Positions 51,199-60,014 of a DNA stretch of 60,188 bases are shown piece after piece; the first letter of the stretch is position 1, and every line of letters starts with the position of its first letter. A program made the translations under genes and the position numbers. The stretch lies in assembly GCA_016839765.1 (NCBI GenBank), contig JAEOTP010000077.1, forward strand, positions 1 through 60,188. The letters are read 5' to 3'. The notes beneath the pieces were generated by a model. The model was not told where the DNA came from, searched no databases, and saw only the letters and a program-made list of their open reading frames with translations. Source of the stretch: Promethearchaeota archaeon (GTDB taxonomy: Archaea; Asgardarchaeota; Lokiarchaeia; Sigyniarchaeales; SOKP01).

Positions 51199-54100
51199 TT
51201 ATAATTCCTCTAACGATTTAGTTTTCTCTAGCAAATATGAATCTATCATCACACCTATTTGGTCAAAATCATAATGCTTTACAGATATTGCACCGACTGG
51301 ACAGGTGGCAGCGCAAGTCCCACAACCTTTGCATAATGCCGAATTTATATATGATTGCTTTATATTCAAATCCAAATCTTCAAATTCCATTTTAGTATCC
51401 AAAAGCTCAATAGCATTATAAGGACAAGTTTCTACACATTTTCCACATCCAATACATTTATCTGGATTAACTTCAGATATTAAACCGGAAGTCTTAATCT
51501 GTTTTGCGCTTAAAAATCGACTAGCTCTACCAGCTGCACCACTTGCTTGTGAAATTGAATCCTGAATATTTTTCGGCCATTGGGCGCATCCACACAAGAA
51601 GATGCCATCAGTTGCAAAATCTAAAGGTCTTAATTTGACATGCGCTTCCAAGAAAAAACCGTTTTTGTCTATTGGTACTTTTAACATTTTTGCTAATTCT
51701 TCTAAATTATCTGCTGGAATCATTGGAGTTGATAATATTATTAAATCGGTTTGAAATTCTATTTCCTCTTGAAGATTCGTGTCAAAAACCTTTATTTCGT
51801 AATTTTCTCTGGCTCCCCTTTTTCTAGTAATTTCTGGTATATTAGTTAAATCATATCTCAAAAAAATTGCATCTTTTCTTCTTTGGCGATAATAATCTTC
51901 GAACTCCTTCTTAGCCATTTGCAAATCTCTATATAATACCGTAATTTCAAGTTCAGGCTTGATTTCTTTAAGTATATTAATATTCTTAATTGCTGTTGCA
52001 CAACAAATATTTGAGCAATAGGTAATCCCTTCTTTTTGTCTTGAATTCACACACAAAATGGTAGTTATTCGATTTATATTTTTTAACCATGCACCATTTT
52101 GATCTTTTAATTTTTGTTCTAGTTCTAGTTGAGTTATGACATTTTGATTTTTACCGTTATATTGGAATAAACCATTTGGTTTTAATTCCTTCCCTCCAGT
52201 AGCAACTATTATTGTACCAACTTTAAAATCATGAATTACTTTTTCTTTATCGCCTACAGCAATATCATAATTTCCTATGTAACCCTTAATATTCTCAAGT
52301 TTAGATTCTAAGAAAATTTTGATATTTTTATTCTTTTTTACTTTTTCAATTATTTCATTTAGAAAAATTGATCCTTTTTCTTGAATTGGAGATAGAATGT
52401 TAAGATAATTTAGAATACCTCCTAATTTATTCTCTGTTTCTACGAGGTATGTTTCAAATCCTTGTTCTGCGATGTTTAGCGCGGCACTCATTCCTGCAAC
52501 CCCTCCACCAATGACTAATGCTGAGGGAATAATATTAAGGGTTTCTTCTTTTTGTGGCTTTAAGAGTCTGGCTTTCGCTACAGCCATTTTTACAAGGTCT
52601 ATAGATTTTTCGGTAGCTGCTTCCCTCTCTGTCATATGAACCCAAGAACATTGATCTCGAATATTAACCATTTCAAAAAGATATTTGTTTAATCCTGCCT
52701 CTTGACAAGTAACCTGAAACAAGGTTTCATGTGTTCTAGGAGTGCACGAAGCTACTATGAACCTATTTAAATCATTTTCTTTAATAACTTCCTTTATTCT
52801 TTCCTGAGAATCACTAGAACATGAATATAAATTTGCTTCACAGTGAACTACATTTGGTAATTTTTTAATTTCTTCAACAACGTCTGGAACATCTACATAT
52901 TTTCCAATATTAATCCCACAATGACAAATTAAAACTCCAATTCTCGATTCTTCAGATGTTTTTACTTCCTTTTCTGGTTCTTCAAACTCCTTTTCTTTGA
53001 TCTGGGTAAATTTAACTGAGTTTAATAATGTTGCAACTTGTGATGCTACACCACTCGCATCTGCTACAGTCTCAGGGATATCCATTGGACCTTGACAAAA
53101 ACCGCATAAAAATATACCATCTTTTGAAGATTGTAATTTATTAAAGTAAGAACGTTCCTTGAAAAAATTATATTGATCAAGTTCAATCCCTAAAATCTCT
53201 GCTAATTCGTTTGTGCCTCTTGATGCTACTAAGGGTGATGCTAATACTACTAAATTTGCTTTAAAATCTTTAAATTCTCCAGTTTTTAAATCCTCATAAT
53301 GTATAAGTAAATCATTAGTTTCAGGATCTTCCCTAATTTGACTGATCTTCGTTTGGTAGTATTTTACTCCATATTCTTGCTGAGCCCGCTGAGTGAATTC
53401 ATAAAAATTCTTACCATAAGCTCTAATATCGTGTCTAAATACATAGCATTCTGATTTCTCGGAATGTTCTTTTGTTATAATTGCTTCTTTTGCTGTATAT
53501 GTACAACATACACTTGAACAATACGGTACTCCCTCATGTAAATCTCTTGAACCAGCACATTGAATAAAAGCAATTTTTTCAGGTTCTTCATGATCACTTG
53601 GTCTTAAGACATGTCCCCCGAAAGGTCCTGAAGCACATAAAATTCTCTCATATTCAAGAGCACTTACTACATTTTCATATTGGTACCCCCATCTTAAAGA
53701 TAATTTTTCAGCAGGCATCTCAAAACCAGTTGCTACTACAATAGCTCCTATATTGAGTTGAATATCTTGAGGTTTTTGTTCATAATCAATTGCTTCAGCT
53801 TCACAAACTTTTTCACAAACTCCACATACTCCTTTTGTTAATTTCAAACACAACTTAGGATCAATTAAATAGACGGGAGGGACTGCTTGAGGGAAGGGTA
53901 TATAAATGGATTTTCTTTTCCCTAGATTCATATCAAATAAGTTTGGAACTTCAATTTTTGGGCATTTTGTAGCACAATCTCCACAGCCTTTGCATTTTGT
54001 TTCATCAATATAGCGTGGCTTTTTAAGAATTGTGATAGTAAAATCTCCTGCCGCTCCAGTAATTTCTTTAACTTCGTGATAAGTTAATAATTCAATATTA

Positions 54101-54306
54101 GGATTTCTAAAAACCTCGACCATTTTAGGTGCGAGAATACATAAACTGCAATCATTTGTAGGGAATGTCTTATCAAGTTGAGCCATTCGGCCTCCAATTG
54201 AGGGAGTCCTTTCAACTAAAAATACTTTATAACCTAATTCGGTCAAATCTAAAGAACATTGGATACCAGCAATTCCTCCACCAATTACTAATACAGATCC
54301 TTCCAT
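51199..54306 (-). CDS. hdrA: Double-length HdrA-like protein (cysteine form)
   Basis: 1035 residues, about 1.5 times a normal HdrA. Residues 1-440 are an HdrA core without the usual N-terminal domain: GGGIAGIQCSLDL (FAD), FPTNDCSLCILAPKM, CKGCGDCATKCP and a second Cys-rich site (CGVCEKVC). Around 460 a typical HdrA N terminus starts (GVLICHCGINIGKYVDVP). A second FAD domain (VIGGGVAGMSAALNIAEQG, near 595) lacks the NDCSLC loop. The end carries two [4Fe-4S] motifs (CIGCGKCVETCP and CKGCGTCAATCP). So it is a fusion of two HdrA-type units, one degenerate at the FAD-proximal cluster. HdrA is the bifurcating flavoprotein of heterodisulfide reductase. Overlaps the HdrCB gene by 1 nt (TAATG). Confidence 0.92.
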   Translation of the reverse strand: MEGSVLVIGGGIAGIQCSLDLTELGYKVFLVERTPSIGGRMAQLDKTFPTNDCSLCILAPKMVEVFRNPNIELLTYHEVKEITGAAGDFTITILKKPRYIDETKCKGCGDCATKCPKIEVPNLFDMNLGKRKSIYIPFPQAVPPVYLIDPKLCLKLTKGVCGVCEKVCEAEAIDYEQKPQDIQLNIGAIVVATGFEMPAEKLSLRWGYQYENVVSALEYERILCASGPFGGHVLRPSDHEEPEKIAFIQCAGSRDLHEGVPYCSSVCCTYTAKEAIITKEHSEKSECYVFRHDIRAYGKNFYEFTQRAQQEYGVKYYQTKISQIREDPETNDLLIHYEDLKTGEFKDFKANLVVLASPLVASRGTNELAEILGIELDQYNFFKERSYFNKLQSSKDGIFLCGFCQGPMDIPETVADASGVASQVATLLNSVKFTQIKEKEFEEPEKEVKTSEESRIGVLICHCGINIGKYVDVPDVVEEIKKLPNVVHCEANLYSCSSDSQERIKEVIKENDLNRFIVASCTPRTHETLFQVTCQEAGLNKYLFEMVNIRDQCSWVHMTEREAATEKSIDLVKMAVAKARLLKPQKEETLNIIPSALVIGGGVAGMSAALNIAEQGFETYLVETENKLGGILNYLNILSPIQEKGSIFLNEIIEKVKKNKNIKIFLESKLENIKGYIGNYDIAVGDKEKVIHDFKVGTIIVATGGKELKPNGLFQYNGKNQNVITQLELEQKLKDQNGAWLKNINRITTILCVNSRQKEGITYCSNICCATAIKNINILKEIKPELEITVLYRDLQMAKKEFEDYYRQRRKDAIFLRYDLTNIPEITRKRGARENYEIKVFDTNLQEEIEFQTDLIILSTPMIPADNLEELAKMLKVPIDKNGFFLEAHVKLRPLDFATDGIFLCGCAQWPKNIQDSISQASGAAGRASRFLSAKQIKTSGLISEVNPDKCIGCGKCVETCPYNAIELLDTKMEFEDLDLNIKQSYINSALCKGCGTCAATCPVGAISVKHYDFDQIGVMIDSYLLEKTKSLEEL

Positions 54307-55971: not shown

Positions 55972-57969
55972 ATGTCTGATAAGCAGACCATTGTTAGAAT
56001 AGGCGTTTATGTATGCAGGTGAGGAGTAAATATTGGAGCTACGGTAGATTGTGATGCTGTGAAAGATGCTGTTGAACATCTCTCAAATGTCGCAATTACT
56101 AGAGTAAATGACTTTACTTGTAGTGATCCTGGACAGAAAATCATCAAAAATGATATTTTAGAGTTAGATTTAAATCGCATTGTTGTTGCTGCTTGTACTC
56201 CAAAAATTCATGAATCCACTTATCGTGCTGTCTTAATTGAAGCTGGATTAAGCCCTTATTATTTTCAGATGGTTAATTTACGTGAACATTGTTCATTTGT
56301 ACACGGAGATGACAAGAGAGGTGCCACTGAAAAGGCGATAAGACTAGTTATAGCAGGAATAAACCGTGTTCGTGAGTTAGAGAGTATTCCCCGGAAAGTT
56401 ATACCAGTAGAGAGGGCAGCTTTAGTAATTGGTGCTGGAATTGCTGGAATGAATGCTGCGTTAGATTTAGCAAACCAGGGAATAAATGTTTATTTAGTTG
56501 AAAAAGAACCTACTATTGGTGGAAAAATGGCACAATTAGATAGGATTTATCCAACGGATGATTGTGGAATATGAGTACTTGCTCCAATAATGGTTAATGC
56601 TTCGAAACAACCAAATATAAATTTATATACTTATAGCGATATCGTCGAATTTAGCGGAATTCCTGGTAATTATAAAGTTAAAATAAGAAAAAATCCTCGT
56701 TATATTGATGAAAGTAAGTGTACTGGTTGTGGCTTATGCACATCCAAATGTCCTATAAAAATACCCGATGAATTTAATAGAGGGATCGGTGATAGGTGTG
56801 CTGTTTACATTCCCTTCCCTCAAGCTGTACCAAAATATGCTGTAATTGACAAGTCTGTTTGTATTGACTGCAAAAACTGCCAAAGAATATGCCCAGCCGA
56901 AGCAGTTGATTTTGAACAAGAACCACAATATATTGATATAAATGTGGGAGCTGTAATAGTCGCTACAGGTTATGATGAATACCCAATTATCGAAACTAAT
57001 GAGTACAACTATGGATTATATCCTGATGTAATCACTCAAATAGAACTAGAACGGATGTTAAGTCCTATTGGTCCAACCGATGGTCATGTGTATAGAATTT
57101 CTAATGGAGAAATCCCAAATACGATTGTTATGATTCAATGTGTCGGTTCAAGATCAGTAAAAGAACTTCCCTATTGCTCTGGAGTGTGTTGCAATGTGGC
57201 TCTTAAAAATGCACAATTATTAAAGCAAGAGTATCCTGACATGGATGTTGTTTTGTTTTACATTGATATTAGGACAACAGATAAAGGAAACGAGGAATAT
57301 TATAGAAGAATAAGAGATACGGGGATTAGAATGATTCGAGGAAAAGTCGGAGAAGTATTGGAAGACCCTGAAACGAAAATGCTAAAAATTCGGGCATTTT
57401 CATCTTTAACAGGTGATATTATTAAACTTAACGCTGATTTAGTTGTATTGTCTACAGGTATGATACCTTCAAAAGGTACTATTGAAATTATAGACTTAAT
57501 GGGTTTAGCTAAAGGTCCAAATGGATTTTTAACTGAAATTCATGGATGTCTAAGCCCTCAAGAAACGAATAATATGGGAATTTATATTTGTGGGGCTGCA
57601 GCTGGACCAAAGAACATCCCTTATTCCGTATCAACAGCTTTAGCGGCAGCAAGCAAGGCTGCTACTCTGCTATCGCACGATACTATAAACCAAGAATTAT
57701 TGATTGCAGAAGTGAAAGAAGAACTTTGTATGGGATGCCATAGATGTGAAAAATTGTGTTATTATGAAGCAATAAAAGTAGGTGAAAACAATATTGCAAT
57801 TGTAGATGATTTAAAATGCAAAGGTTGTGGCGTGTGCGCTACATCGTGTCCCGCGAGAGCGATTGACCTAAAATACTATAGAGACAAACAATTCATCGAA
57901 GAAATTAAAGGAATCAGTAGTAGCGAAATTGAATCCATCCAAGAAGCACCAAAAATTGAGGAAGAGTAA
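55972..57969 (+). CDS. hdrA: HdrA with two UGA-encoded selenocysteines
   Basis: 665 residues if UGA at codons 17 and 201 is read through. Codon 17 gives VCR-U-GVNIG, where the cysteine copy in this window has ICHCGINIG. Codon 201 gives YPTDDCGI-U-VLAP, where the other has FPTNDCSLCILAP. The frame is continuous and fully HdrA-like on both sides: FAD motif VIGAGIAGMNAALDL near 150, CTGCGLCTSKCP, CIDCKNCQRICP, and C-terminal CMGCHRCEKLC and CKGCGVCATSCP. Length is that of standard HdrA. UGA is a normal stop elsewhere here, and selenocysteine in HdrA near the FAD-proximal cluster is known in methanogens. Read as ordinary stops, it would be seen as three broken pieces. Confidence 0.92.
56020..56022 (+). 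other. UGA codon read as selenocysteine, HdrA residue 17
   Basis: TGA in frame between TGC AGG and GGA GTA AAT ATT GGA. The matching residue is cysteine in the HdrA of the leftward set (CHCGINIG). Confidence 0.88.
56572..56574 (+). other. UGA codon read as selenocysteine, HdrA residue 201
   Basis: TGA in frame within DDCGI-U-VLAPIM. It corresponds to the second Cys of the NDCSLC motif, a ligand region of the cluster next to FAD. Confidence 0.9.
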
Positions 57970-57990: not shown

Positions 57991-58425
57991 ATGGTTGATT
58001 CAGAAAATAAGAATTTTAGAAAAATTATTGCTTTTGGATGCGATAAATGAGGTTATTCTGCTGCGGATTTAACTGGAACTACGAGAAAAACATACTCAAC
58101 TGATTTTCACTTAATTCGAGTTAGATGTACAGGAAGAGTTGGTATTCATTTAATTATGGAATGTTTTTTGAATGGTGCTGATGGAGTAGCTATTATATCA
58201 TGAAAAGAAGGAGAATGTGAATATGGTAGTGGTAACCTTAATACCTATGAGCATATTAAGCTCTTGAAACGGTTATTTAAACATCTAGGGATTTCCGAAA
58301 ACAGGATTCAACAATATTTCTGTTCAGCAGCAGAGGTGGAAAAATTCATCCAATCAGTAGAAGACATAACAACCAAAATTTATGAACTCCCACCTATACC
58401 TAAACAAAAACTTAATCCGAAGTAG
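57991..58425 (+). CDS. mvhD: MvhD/VhuD-like Fe-S subunit with two UGA-encoded selenocysteines
   Basis: 144 residues if UGA at codons 20 and 71 is read through, the same length as the cysteine copy at 50.8 kb. Alignment with it: FGCDK-U-GYSAADLTG against FCCNWCSYAGADLAG; RVRCTGRVGIHLIMECF against RVMCSGRVDPAFVLRAL; IIS-U-KEGECEYGSGN against LISGCHIGDCHYISGN. Both UGAs replace cysteine ligands of the electron-transfer cluster. It starts 21 nt after the hdrA stop and ends with TAG. It accepts electrons from a hydrogenase or formate dehydrogenase partner and passes them to HdrA. Conventional gene calling leaves this stretch empty. Confidence 0.92.
58048..58050 (+). other. UGA codon read as selenocysteine, MvhD residue 20
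   Basis: TGA in frame in GCDK-U-GYSAADL, replacing the third Cys of CCNWC in the cysteine paralog. Confidence 0.9.
58201..58203 (+). other. UGA codon read as selenocysteine, MvhD residue 71
   Basis: TGA in frame in IIS-U-KEGEC, at the place of the first Cys of GCHIGDC in the cysteine paralog. Confidence 0.88.
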
Positions 58426-58485
58426 GATGATCCTACCAAAAAAATTATAGTTGGGAGGAAACTAACTCATAGCCTGAGCTTTCGG
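58417..58485 (+). promoter_or_regulatory. Candidate SECIS element in the mvhD 3' region
   Basis: A foldable region begins at the mvhD stop codon. An outer helix CCGAAG (58417-58422) can pair with CTTTCGG (58479-58485). An inner helix TCCTACCA (58431-58438) can pair with TGGGAGGA (58452-58459) with one A-G mismatch, closing an A-rich loop (58439-58451). ATGA (58427-58430) sits directly before the inner helix, as in eukaryotic-type SECIS elements, but I do not see the matching GA on the other strand. A 15-nt palindrome GTAGGATGATCCTAC (58422-58436) offers a competing fold. As hdrA has only 21 nt before mvhD, one element here would have to serve both genes. Confidence 0.35.
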
Positions 58486-58520
58486 AATTAAAAATTAGAT
58501 TAATTATTAATATTATAAAG

Positions 58521-60014
58521 ATGGAATCAAAAGGAACTATTTCATGGAACTTTTTAAAGGATATAGCAGATACTTTAGATTCATATAGGATACGCCTCTT
58601 AATAGATGCTAAAAATGAAATTATTAGTTCTGCTATTTATGATGAAGAACAATATTATCAAATACTTCTTCAGATGATTGACGTAGAAAGAATGAAATAT
58701 TCCCTATTTAATTATTTAAATACCGAAGAAAATCACAATTTTAAATCCCTAAAACAATTTTCTAAACAAAATTCAATTGATATTAAAAAAACTCTAAGCT
58801 TTTTAGAGTTATTGAGAAATGAGAGACTAATCAAGGTAGAATATATTCATAACAATAATGATACTACTGAAGGAAATTCTAGCGATTTAACCATTAAGGA
58901 TTTATCAATTAGAAGTTTACAACTAATTCCTTCTGAAGTTAAATCTATCTACGAACCAGTAAAAGTTGTTTATGAGACTAACAATTGTTCTGGGTGTGGA
59001 TTGTGTGCTGGTATCTGTCCAGTTAATTGTATAAATATCTATAATGGGTTTGGAAAACTTGATGAAGATAAATGTATAAGATGCGGATTATGTTATTATT
59101 TTTGCCCAAGGACCTACTTACCTGTAAATTTATTAAATATGACCCAAAAAGATACTTCTAAATTAGAAAATTTTCCTAAAATAGGTTATTACCTAGAGGT
59201 ATATTCGGCTAGATCTAAAATAAAGGAAATCTCTAAAGTATGTCAAGATGGTGGAATTTCAAGTACGTGTCTCTATTTTTTGTTTGAAAGAAATGAGATA
59301 GATATTGCATTGGGAGCAAAAATGAGTCGAACTCCGTGGCGACCAGAACCAATATTAATTAAAAATAAAGAAGATATATTGAAAACTGCCGGAACAAAAT
59401 ATGTAAATAATCCTACTCTCAGCTTGTTAAATGAATTGAATAAAAATTCCAGCAAAATAGCTGTTGTTGGAGTTCCTTGTATGATGCAAGCTTTATTAAA
59501 ATCAGAAATTTATAATATCGGAATCCCCTCATTAAATCAGGTAGAATATAGAATCGGTATTTTTTGCATGGAATCATTTTCTTATGAATCCCTATTAAAA
59601 ATCTGCGAAACTTTAAGTGTAGATATTAACAATGTCCGGAAAACTGATATTAATAAAGGTAAATTTTTTGTATATACTCATAAGGGAGAAGATTTATCAA
59701 TTCCAATTAAAGAAATATCTCATTTAGCAAGAGAAGATTGTGAGATTTGCTTTGATTTAACTTCTGAGTCGGCTGACATATCAATTGGTTCAATTGGAGC
59801 ACCATCAGGTTGGAATACTGTTATAGTACGAACACCAAAAGGAAAACAATTATTTGATGGATTGGTAAAAAATAATTTGATTGAATTTAAAAAGATTACA
59901 GAAGTTCAACCCGGATTACCAATGGTTGAAAAAATTGCCAATTCAAAGAGAAATAAGTGCTCTAAACATATCGCTAAAAAAGAAGGCGAAAACAAGAGAA
60001 CTCCTAATTATTAA
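58521..60014 (+). CDS. FrhB/FdhB-like F420 oxidoreductase with N-terminal extension
   Basis: 497 residues. Residues 1-150 are a helical, winged-helix-like extension (FNYLNTEENHNFKSLKQFSK, ISLELLRN-type helices) I do not recognise. Two [4Fe-4S] motifs follow: CSGCGLCAGICP and CIRCGLCYYFCP (about 155-200). Then comes the FrhB domain: VCQDGGISSTCLYFL, VVGVPCMMQAL and CFDLTSESADISIGSIG. FrhB-type subunits bind FAD and F420 and move electrons between F420H2 and iron-sulfur partners. It lies 95 nt after the UGA-containing mvhD on the same strand, pointing to an F420-coupled HdrA complex. CofC is 10 kb upstream. Confidence 0.85.
   Translation: MESKGTISWNFLKDIADTLDSYRIRLLIDAKNEIISSAIYDEEQYYQILLQMIDVERMKYSLFNYLNTEENHNFKSLKQFSKQNSIDIKKTLSFLELLRNERLIKVEYIHNNNDTTEGNSSDLTIKDLSIRSLQLIPSEVKSIYEPVKVVYETNNCSGCGLCAGICPVNCINIYNGFGKLDEDKCIRCGLCYYFCPRTYLPVNLLNMTQKDTSKLENFPKIGYYLEVYSARSKIKEISKVCQDGGISSTCLYFLFERNEIDIALGAKMSRTPWRPEPILIKNKEDILKTAGTKYVNNPTLSLLNELNKNSSKIAVVGVPCMMQALLKSEIYNIGIPSLNQVEYRIGIFCMESFSYESLLKICETLSVDINNVRKTDINKGKFFVYTHKGEDLSIPIKEISHLAREDCEICFDLTSESADISIGSIGAPSGWNTVIVRTPKGKQLFDGLVKNNLIEFKKITEVQPGLPMVEKIANSKRNKCSKHIAKKEGENKRTPNY

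Follow-up and report, generated by a model that had tools for sequence, protein, structure and literature searches.

A putative double-selenocysteine HdrA encoded with a double-selenocysteine VhuD and a single downstream SECIS element in a Lokiarchaeia genome

Genes and features of the hdrA locus

The window, which is the entire 60,188-nucleotide stretch of DNA analyzed here, belongs to an assembly of 3.32 Mb in 96 contigs that is 95.9% complete. It contains an hdrA gene and a vhuD gene, each with two in-frame UGA codons, a SECIS element at the end of vhuD, and a gene for an FrhB/FpoF-like protein. The features are listed below.

55972..57969, forward strand: hdrA, 665 aa, with two in-frame UGA codons read as Sec (U17 and U201); assigned from NCBIfam and the alignment with solved HdrA proteins
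56020..56022, forward strand: UGA codon 17 of hdrA, in the motif CRUG; position 13 of 5odc by alignment
56572..56574, forward strand: UGA codon 201 of hdrA, in the motif DCGIUVLAP; position 197 of 5odc by alignment
57991..58425, forward strand: vhuD/mvhD/frhD, 144 aa, with two in-frame UGA codons read as Sec (U20 and U71); Pfam FlpD PF02662, E 1.5e-37
58048..58050, forward strand: UGA codon 20 of vhuD; this column has 135 U, 37 C and 1 G in 173 distinct sequences
58201..58203, forward strand: UGA codon 71 of vhuD; this column has 132 U and 41 C in 173 distinct sequences
58416..58422, forward strand: 5' arm of the SECIS lower stem (UCCGAAG), within the end of vhuD; its partner is UUUCGGA at 58480-58486
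58427..58462, forward strand: SECIS core and apical hairpin, with AUGA, a 9-bp stem (58431-58439/58451-58459, one mismatch), loop AAAAAUUAUAG and AAC
58466..58478, forward strand: SECIS side hairpin CUCA-UAGCC-UGAG, from covariation in the family
58521..60014, forward strand: FrhB/FpoF-like protein with a 4Fe-4S domain; PF04432 E 2.6e-42, PF04422 E 6.9e-19, PRK09325 E 1.5e-85 (above cut-off)

The first-pass annotation of this DNA described one HdrA frame whose sole interruptions are UGA codons 17 and 201, and that description holds. The frame at 55972-57969 on the forward strand is open except for TGA at these two codons, and it terminates in TAA. Without recoding, translation table 11 yields two frames, 56059-56574 and 56590-57969. 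The best NCBIfam model for the protein is NF040770 (HdrA2, E 7.3e-241), with a score of 801.5 bits that lies below the cut-off of 1100; this model also spans the VhuD part. The protein can be aligned over nearly its full length with the solved HdrA proteins 5odc, 9sfi and 8rvu, and it has the HdrA architecture of an N-terminal Fe-S domain, an FAD domain, and inserted and C-terminal ferredoxin domains. Its UGA at the Cys197 column is aligned with Cys in homologues.

Both TGAs are kept in all five relatives used to calculate dN/dS (L031, L032, L033, L209 and L004). For codons 18-200, dN/dS was 0.062-0.125 in each of the five comparisons. For codons 202-650 it was 0.062-0.132 in the four of five comparisons that gave a value, L032 being saturated. 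These values of 0.06-0.13 indicate purifying selection on the frame past each UGA. The nearest HdrA among named records is L031, from a Lokiarchaeota MAG, with 96% identity.

The first-pass annotation also used a neighboring gene as a cysteine copy, 2-4 kb away. This gene (51199-54306, reverse strand) was rejected as a Cys isoform, as it consists of two HdrA copies fused in a different architecture. By eye, the Cys197 motif is in its first half and the N-terminal domain in its second, and neither half has both. Passages of PMC9012536 describe complementary HdrA fusions of a similar sort, with the halves in the opposite order.

The double-UGA vhuD and the shared SECIS element were not part of the first-pass finding. 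In VhuD, the other conserved Cys columns (17, 46 and 76) contained no Sec in the 173 distinct sequences. The FrhB/FpoF-like protein at 58521..60014 is the probable electron-input partner in the hdrA-vhuD operon.

The SECIS element and the Sec machinery

The AUGA of the SECIS core starts one base past the vhuD stop and is followed by the 9-bp hairpin with its A-rich loop. The element lies downstream of hdrA and vhuD on what is putatively a shared transcript. It fits the type I eSECIS-like model, with AUGA_AA, 9 bp including one mismatch, and an 11-nt loop; PMC11227280 gives this model as a GA_[G/A]A core, an upper stem of 7-15 bp with no more than 2 mismatches, and an apical loop of 8-20 nt. 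A covariance-model match covers 58409-58504 (E 1.0e-11), the window sequence itself being in the model. With this model the genome has seven matches at E < 0.01, and each of its four TGA-bearing hdrA loci has one of them; the model includes the window's own element and relatives of the other genome elements. In a separate scan, 87% of the 150 scored Sec-bearing loci were above the 95th percentile of shuffled sequence, compared with 0 of 20 scored Cys-only loci. The scan detected no clear SECIS at 19 of 157 Sec-bearing HdrA genes. Several of these are close to where the fetched sequence stops, and at least one of them, the C43 paralogue, has an element.

The structure was examined in an alignment of 67 of 89 dissimilar elements. 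The 22 elements outside this alignment, and so outside the pair counts, include those of Sigyn-, Jord- and Freyarchaea as well as a group whose side hairpin is AUGG/CCAU. RNAalifold, with no structure supplied, predicted the 9-bp stem and a second hairpin of 3 bp on its 3' side, and all 12 pairs had changed on both sides among the 67 elements. With the side hairpin lengthened to 5 bp, 90.3% of cells could pair, compared with 70.0% in shuffled and 37-51% in slid alignments, and the covariation score was 0.629 versus 0.244 for shuffles, which ignore relatedness. The side helix alone was paired in 83.1% of cells. Scored per sequence, the side hairpin had a mean of 10.4 versus 7.9 when shuffled, with about 24% of shuffles scoring as high on average, and for the window's own side hairpin 60% of shuffles reached its score. 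These per-sequence scores only modestly exceed the shuffles, and the support for the side hairpin is the covariation in the alignment. The same is true of the window structure as a whole, since the minimum-free-energy fold of the window element is a different pairing and not the SECIS hairpin. The element of L004 folds into the apical and side hairpins, and the stretch of L006 that was folded did not include its element.

The Asgard hdrA/vhuD SECIS resembles a three-way junction made of the lower stem, the apical hairpin and the covarying side hairpin. The side-hairpin loop holds GC or GT in 134 of 138 elements from the scan. Sections 6, 7, 13 and 14 of Huang 2024 (PMC11227280) make no mention of a side hairpin. 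Also, in 38 of 127 hdrA-vhuD operons, vhuD first meets an in-frame stop at the UGA of the AUGA core itself.

Codon 17 and the SECIS core are 2407 nt apart in the window and 2000-2466 nt apart over 138 loci. With one element per locus, a single SECIS appears to act on four UGAs in the window and on six in the operon of C43.

The first-pass annotation would have abandoned its reading if the genome lacked Sec machinery or a tRNA-Sec, and both are present. The tRNA-Sec is on contig C34, at 62.1 bits, above the Rfam cut-off and in agreement with ARAGORN, and it is adjoined by SepSecS (474.9 bits, above cut-off). SelD is above its family cut-off and has an in-frame TGA of its own. There are also good candidates for PSTK and EFsec. 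The PSTK candidate, at 167 of 290.5 bits, is below the NCBIfam cut-off, and its best solved match is an L-seryl-tRNA(Sec) kinase (E 3.1e-29). The EFsec candidate is in two pieces.

C34 1-123: N-terminal piece of EFsec, on the tRNA-Sec/SepSecS contig
C75 1-1111: further piece of EFsec

The end of C34 encodes the start of a GTPase (IGLFGHIDCGKT), and the opening frame of C75 matches residues 125-480 of the archaeal SelB 4ac9 (E 7.3e-49), a much better match than EF-Tu or EF-1 alpha. The two pieces would be a single EFsec gene cut by the contig ends. The candidate is below the NCBIfam cut-offs, its match to TIGR00475 being weak and the search of solved structures clearer. The EFsec model PF21208 had no match in the window genome, which says nothing, because it had none in any control either.

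The genome contains other possible selenoproteins. A candidate family of small membrane selenoproteins occurs at C12:3643-3834 (about 1321-1512 in L238; relatives L246-L265). Its members have about 60-65 aa, one hydrophobic, probably membrane-spanning segment, and a C-terminal GGGU with a Cys 2-4 residues further on, a layout presumably like that of the eukaryotic SelK/SelS. The C12 frame is followed by a SECIS of the hdrA/vhuD type (E 6.6e-10). Matches at E<0.001 with one TGA each were found in 21 of the 79 genomes of the order, the weakest of which could be chance. GGGU together with a downstream SECIS-like hairpin was found in 15 of 20 fetched loci, the other 5 giving nothing by the filter. 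The candidate is not among the seven Asgard families named in the main text of PMC11227280. There are two further SECIS matches (loci L239 and L240). The match at C46:21470 follows a short VhuU-like frame (FDCULSC), and the match at C20:10819 (E 0.0019) follows a frame with VGC-TGA-TGA.

Sec and Cys across HdrA homologues

HdrA sequences were gathered from 220 loci. A filter on length and N-terminus was passed by 197 of 225 HdrA-like frames, and removal of exact duplicates left 183 distinct HdrA sequences with an intact N-terminus. One of the two search patterns used to collect contigs demanded Cys at column 17, and part of the sample was taken in order of resemblance to the four-Sec copy (among the matches listed, the first 30 loci and a further 80 places). 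Because this pattern and ranking bias the sample, the Sec counts are not population frequencies.

Four columns contained Sec or Cys and nothing else in all 183 sequences: column 17 (149 U, 34 C), column 50 (44 U, 139 C), column 75 (58 U, 125 C) and column 201 (157 U, 26 C). The alternation of U and C at residues 17 and 201, which the first-pass annotation had proposed as a check, is thus found without exception. All 416 TGAs within the HdrA body (columns 9-648) are at conserved Cys columns. These four columns account for 408 of the 416 Sec codons, and the remaining eight are at conserved Cys columns 300 (4), 303 (3) and 619 (1). Outside the body, three TGAs are at columns 651-652 and the others are before the start or after the end. 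Sec was absent in the 183 sequences from the conserved Cys columns 15, 198, 250, 253, 256, 260, 297, 307, 390, 402, 406, 407, 586, 589, 592, 596, 616, 622 and 626.

The number of Sec residues per protein was none in 26, one in 7, two in 78, three in 37, four in 33 and five in 2. Counted at columns 17, 50, 75 and 201 only, 26, 7, 79, 41 and 30 sequences had 0, 1, 2, 3 and 4 Sec. Two UGAs is the commonest state in this biased sample. Sec at 17, 50 or 75 without Sec at 201 was found in 0 of 183 sequences (U201 being present in 157), and Sec at 201 alone was found in seven, five of them from bacterial records. Sec additionally at Cys columns 303, 300 or 619, in ferredoxin-type motifs, was observed in L127, L135, L194, L154-L157 and L151, two of these proteins having five Sec in all. 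L154-L157 have four Sec at 17, 75, 201 and 300, which is a different set from that of C43.

The window genome has eight full-length HdrA matches including the window gene, four with TGAs (2, 2, 4 and 2) and four without. The closest full-length copies (74, 51 and 45% identity) likewise carry TGAs, and the Cys-only copies are at most 44% identical. One additional match, with one TGA and two TAA, overruns the start of the fused HdrA gene. In the C43 paralogue, Sec residues 16, 49, 74 and 199 correspond to columns 17, 50, 75 and 201. Matches at least 67% identical to the C43 copy occur in at least 49 of the 79 genomes of the order; among the matches listed, 34 have four TGAs, two have five, eleven have three and two, both partial, have one.

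Parsimony reconstruction of Sec gain and loss used a FastTree phylogeny with a Cys-only sequence as its root, and ties were settled in favor of Cys. Column 201 had 3 gains and 1 loss, column 17 had 1 gain and 2 losses, column 75 had 8 gains, and column 50 had 6 gains and 7 losses.

Interpretation, alternatives and known systems

Judged from sequence, it is very likely that the window gene encodes a double-Sec HdrA in an operon with a double-Sec VhuD and an FrhB-like protein, that one SECIS element serves the four UGAs, and that both Sec residues of HdrA probably lie at one intersubunit cluster. The first-pass reading as a double selenoprotein is supported in this respect by the machinery, the SECIS element and the alternation of Sec and Cys. 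By alignment, U17, C50, C75 and U201 of the window protein are positions 13, 46, 71 and 197 of 5odc. In PMC9012536, Cys197 of one HdrA ligates the cluster in the N-terminal domain of the other, and a figure legend in the same paper places this N-terminal-domain cluster in the branch presumed to lead toward ferredoxin. Window U201 aligns with this partner-subunit ligand. U17 and U201 probably ligate the same intersubunit cluster, in the ferredoxin branch, because U201 would be lent to the N-terminal cluster and U17 is itself in the N-terminal domain. Columns 15, 17, 50 and 75 of that domain are all invariant as Cys or Sec, and 17, 50 and 75 were chosen as putative ligands over 15 because only these take Sec. 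The simplest reading is that a single intersubunit cluster is ligated by columns 17, 50, 75 and 201, with Sec at two of them here and at all four in C43.

In the proposed mechanism, which takes its trans ligand and electron path from papers on other HdrA proteins, the double-Sec HdrA would be the FAD subunit of an electron-bifurcating complex of the heterodisulfide-reductase type, encoded in one apparent operon with the double-Sec VhuD and the FrhB-like input protein. The one SECIS just 3' of vhuD would specify Sec at each of the four UGAs, which reach back to about 2.4 kb upstream of it. The FrhB-like module, F420H2- or similar-dependent, would feed VhuD and the bifurcating FAD of HdrA; MvhD and a homologue are described as binding a [2Fe-2S] cluster near this FAD (PMC12350162). 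One HdrA subunit would lend U201 to the iron-sulfur cluster in the N-terminal domain of its partner, and the remaining ligands would come from U17, with columns 50 and 75 in paralogues. Selenium may tune the potential of the cluster, its transfer rate or its oxygen tolerance, and Sec ligands in both VhuD and the HdrA cluster may tune the electron path. A bolder reading, which we favor by a small measure, is that the intersubunit cluster has been converted ligand by ligand from Cys to Sec, from two in the window to four in C43, giving a two-subunit [4Fe-4S] cluster held wholly by Sec and a single SECIS for up to six hdrA-vhuD UGAs.

The UGAs could also be real stops, making the gene a pseudogene or a source of short pieces by re-initiation after each UGA. 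The division of the gene under table 11 accords with this. However, we consider it highly improbable given the dN/dS beyond the UGAs, the retention of the UGAs in related genomes and their confinement within the body to Cys columns, and the presence of both SECIS and Sec machinery. That UGA encodes another residue such as Trp, or is generally read through, would account for UGA inside several HdrA genes of the window genome, yet the aligned residues are Cys alone and never Trp. Moreover, seven further raw frames of at least 150 codons in the window (of 44, uncurated) end in TGA, which makes a general sense code for UGA a poor fit and agrees with the dismissal of UGA as Trp in the first-pass annotation. 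The genome also has four full-length Cys-only HdrA matches without TGA and a dedicated tRNA-Sec with SepSecS, and this possibility is scarcely credible.

A different question is what the Sec residues do. They may both be redox-active selenols, in the pairs C15-x-U17 and C198-x-x-U201, and not cluster ligands. The partners C15 and C198 are invariant, and text in PMC11291895 describes CxxU/UxxC motifs in Asgard selenoproteins. This is unlikely, although it deserves consideration, as Cys197 is given as a cluster ligand in PMC9012536. Sec also occurs at columns 50 and 75 (44 and 58 of 183) with no conserved Cys near, and the rare Sec at Cys 300, 303 and 619 is in ferredoxin-type CxxCxxC motifs; for these reasons cluster ligands fit better than selenols. 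It might also be that only U201 is functional and that U17 is drift or a regulatory UGA through which translation responds to selenium status. In 9sfi, column 17 is Cys and column 201 is a non-standard residue (X), and the seven sequences with Sec at 201 alone, mostly bacterial, are in keeping with this idea. On the other hand, U17 has a single gain and two losses by parsimony, is present in 149 of 183 sequences, and has Cys as its sole replacement, so we regard a dispensable U17 as quite improbable. Ligation of one cluster by both U17 and U201 remains the preferred reading.

If this reading is correct, HdrA offers an electron-bifurcating enzyme in which the apparent ligands of a single iron-sulfur cluster form a natural series of 0-4 Sec, and the reason why cells bear the cost of selenium for electron transfer could then be tested directly. 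The reading points to a protein metal center held partly or wholly by selenium. It is also relevant to the Asgard archaea, in which SECIS elements look like those of eukaryotes, and to the service of several distant UGAs by one SECIS, at about 2.4 kb here versus the 70-1500 nt quoted for archaea in PMC9499178.

Several parts of the system are in print, namely Sec-HdrA, Asgard hdrA-frhD pairs, a shared eSECIS-like element and multi-Sec VhuD (PMC11227280, PMC9723677, PMC13188914, PMC1794560). The first-pass annotation was correct that Sec in HdrA (PMC1794560 and others) and Asgard selenoproteins (the hdrA-frhD pairs of PMC11227280) were known before. A sentence in PMC9499178 states that archaeal selenoprotein genes encode one or two Sec and does not name HdrA. 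The main text of PMC11227280 contains none of the phrases "two sec," "multiple sec" or "more than one sec," the supplementary tables being outside this coverage. A literature search that did not extend to Mariotti 2016 (the main Lokiarchaeota paper) or to supplements found no report of more than one Sec in HdrA.

The Sec-HdrA of Methanococcales and some bacteria resembles the window protein as an HdrA with Sec and with vhuD/frhD in the operon (PMC1794560, PMC11097638, PMC2933860, PMC11227280). In 9sfi there is one non-standard residue, at the 201 column, whereas the window family has Sec also at 17 and, in paralogues, at 50, 75, 300, 303 or 619. The Asgard hdrA-frhD pairs described by Huang 2024 (PMC11227280) share with the window the gene pair, the short spacing, a shared type I element and its AUGA_AA core. 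Multi-Sec FrhD/VhuD in some archaea (PMC13188914) covers the window vhuD, and the statement is on FrhD/VhuD, not HdrA. In the HdrABC-MvhADG complex 5odc, as described in PMC9012536 and PMC6019823, the N-terminal cluster of one subunit acquires its final ligand, Cys197, from the partner subunit. This complex has Cys at all four columns, whereas in the window family two of the apparent ligands, and up to four in paralogues, would be Sec.
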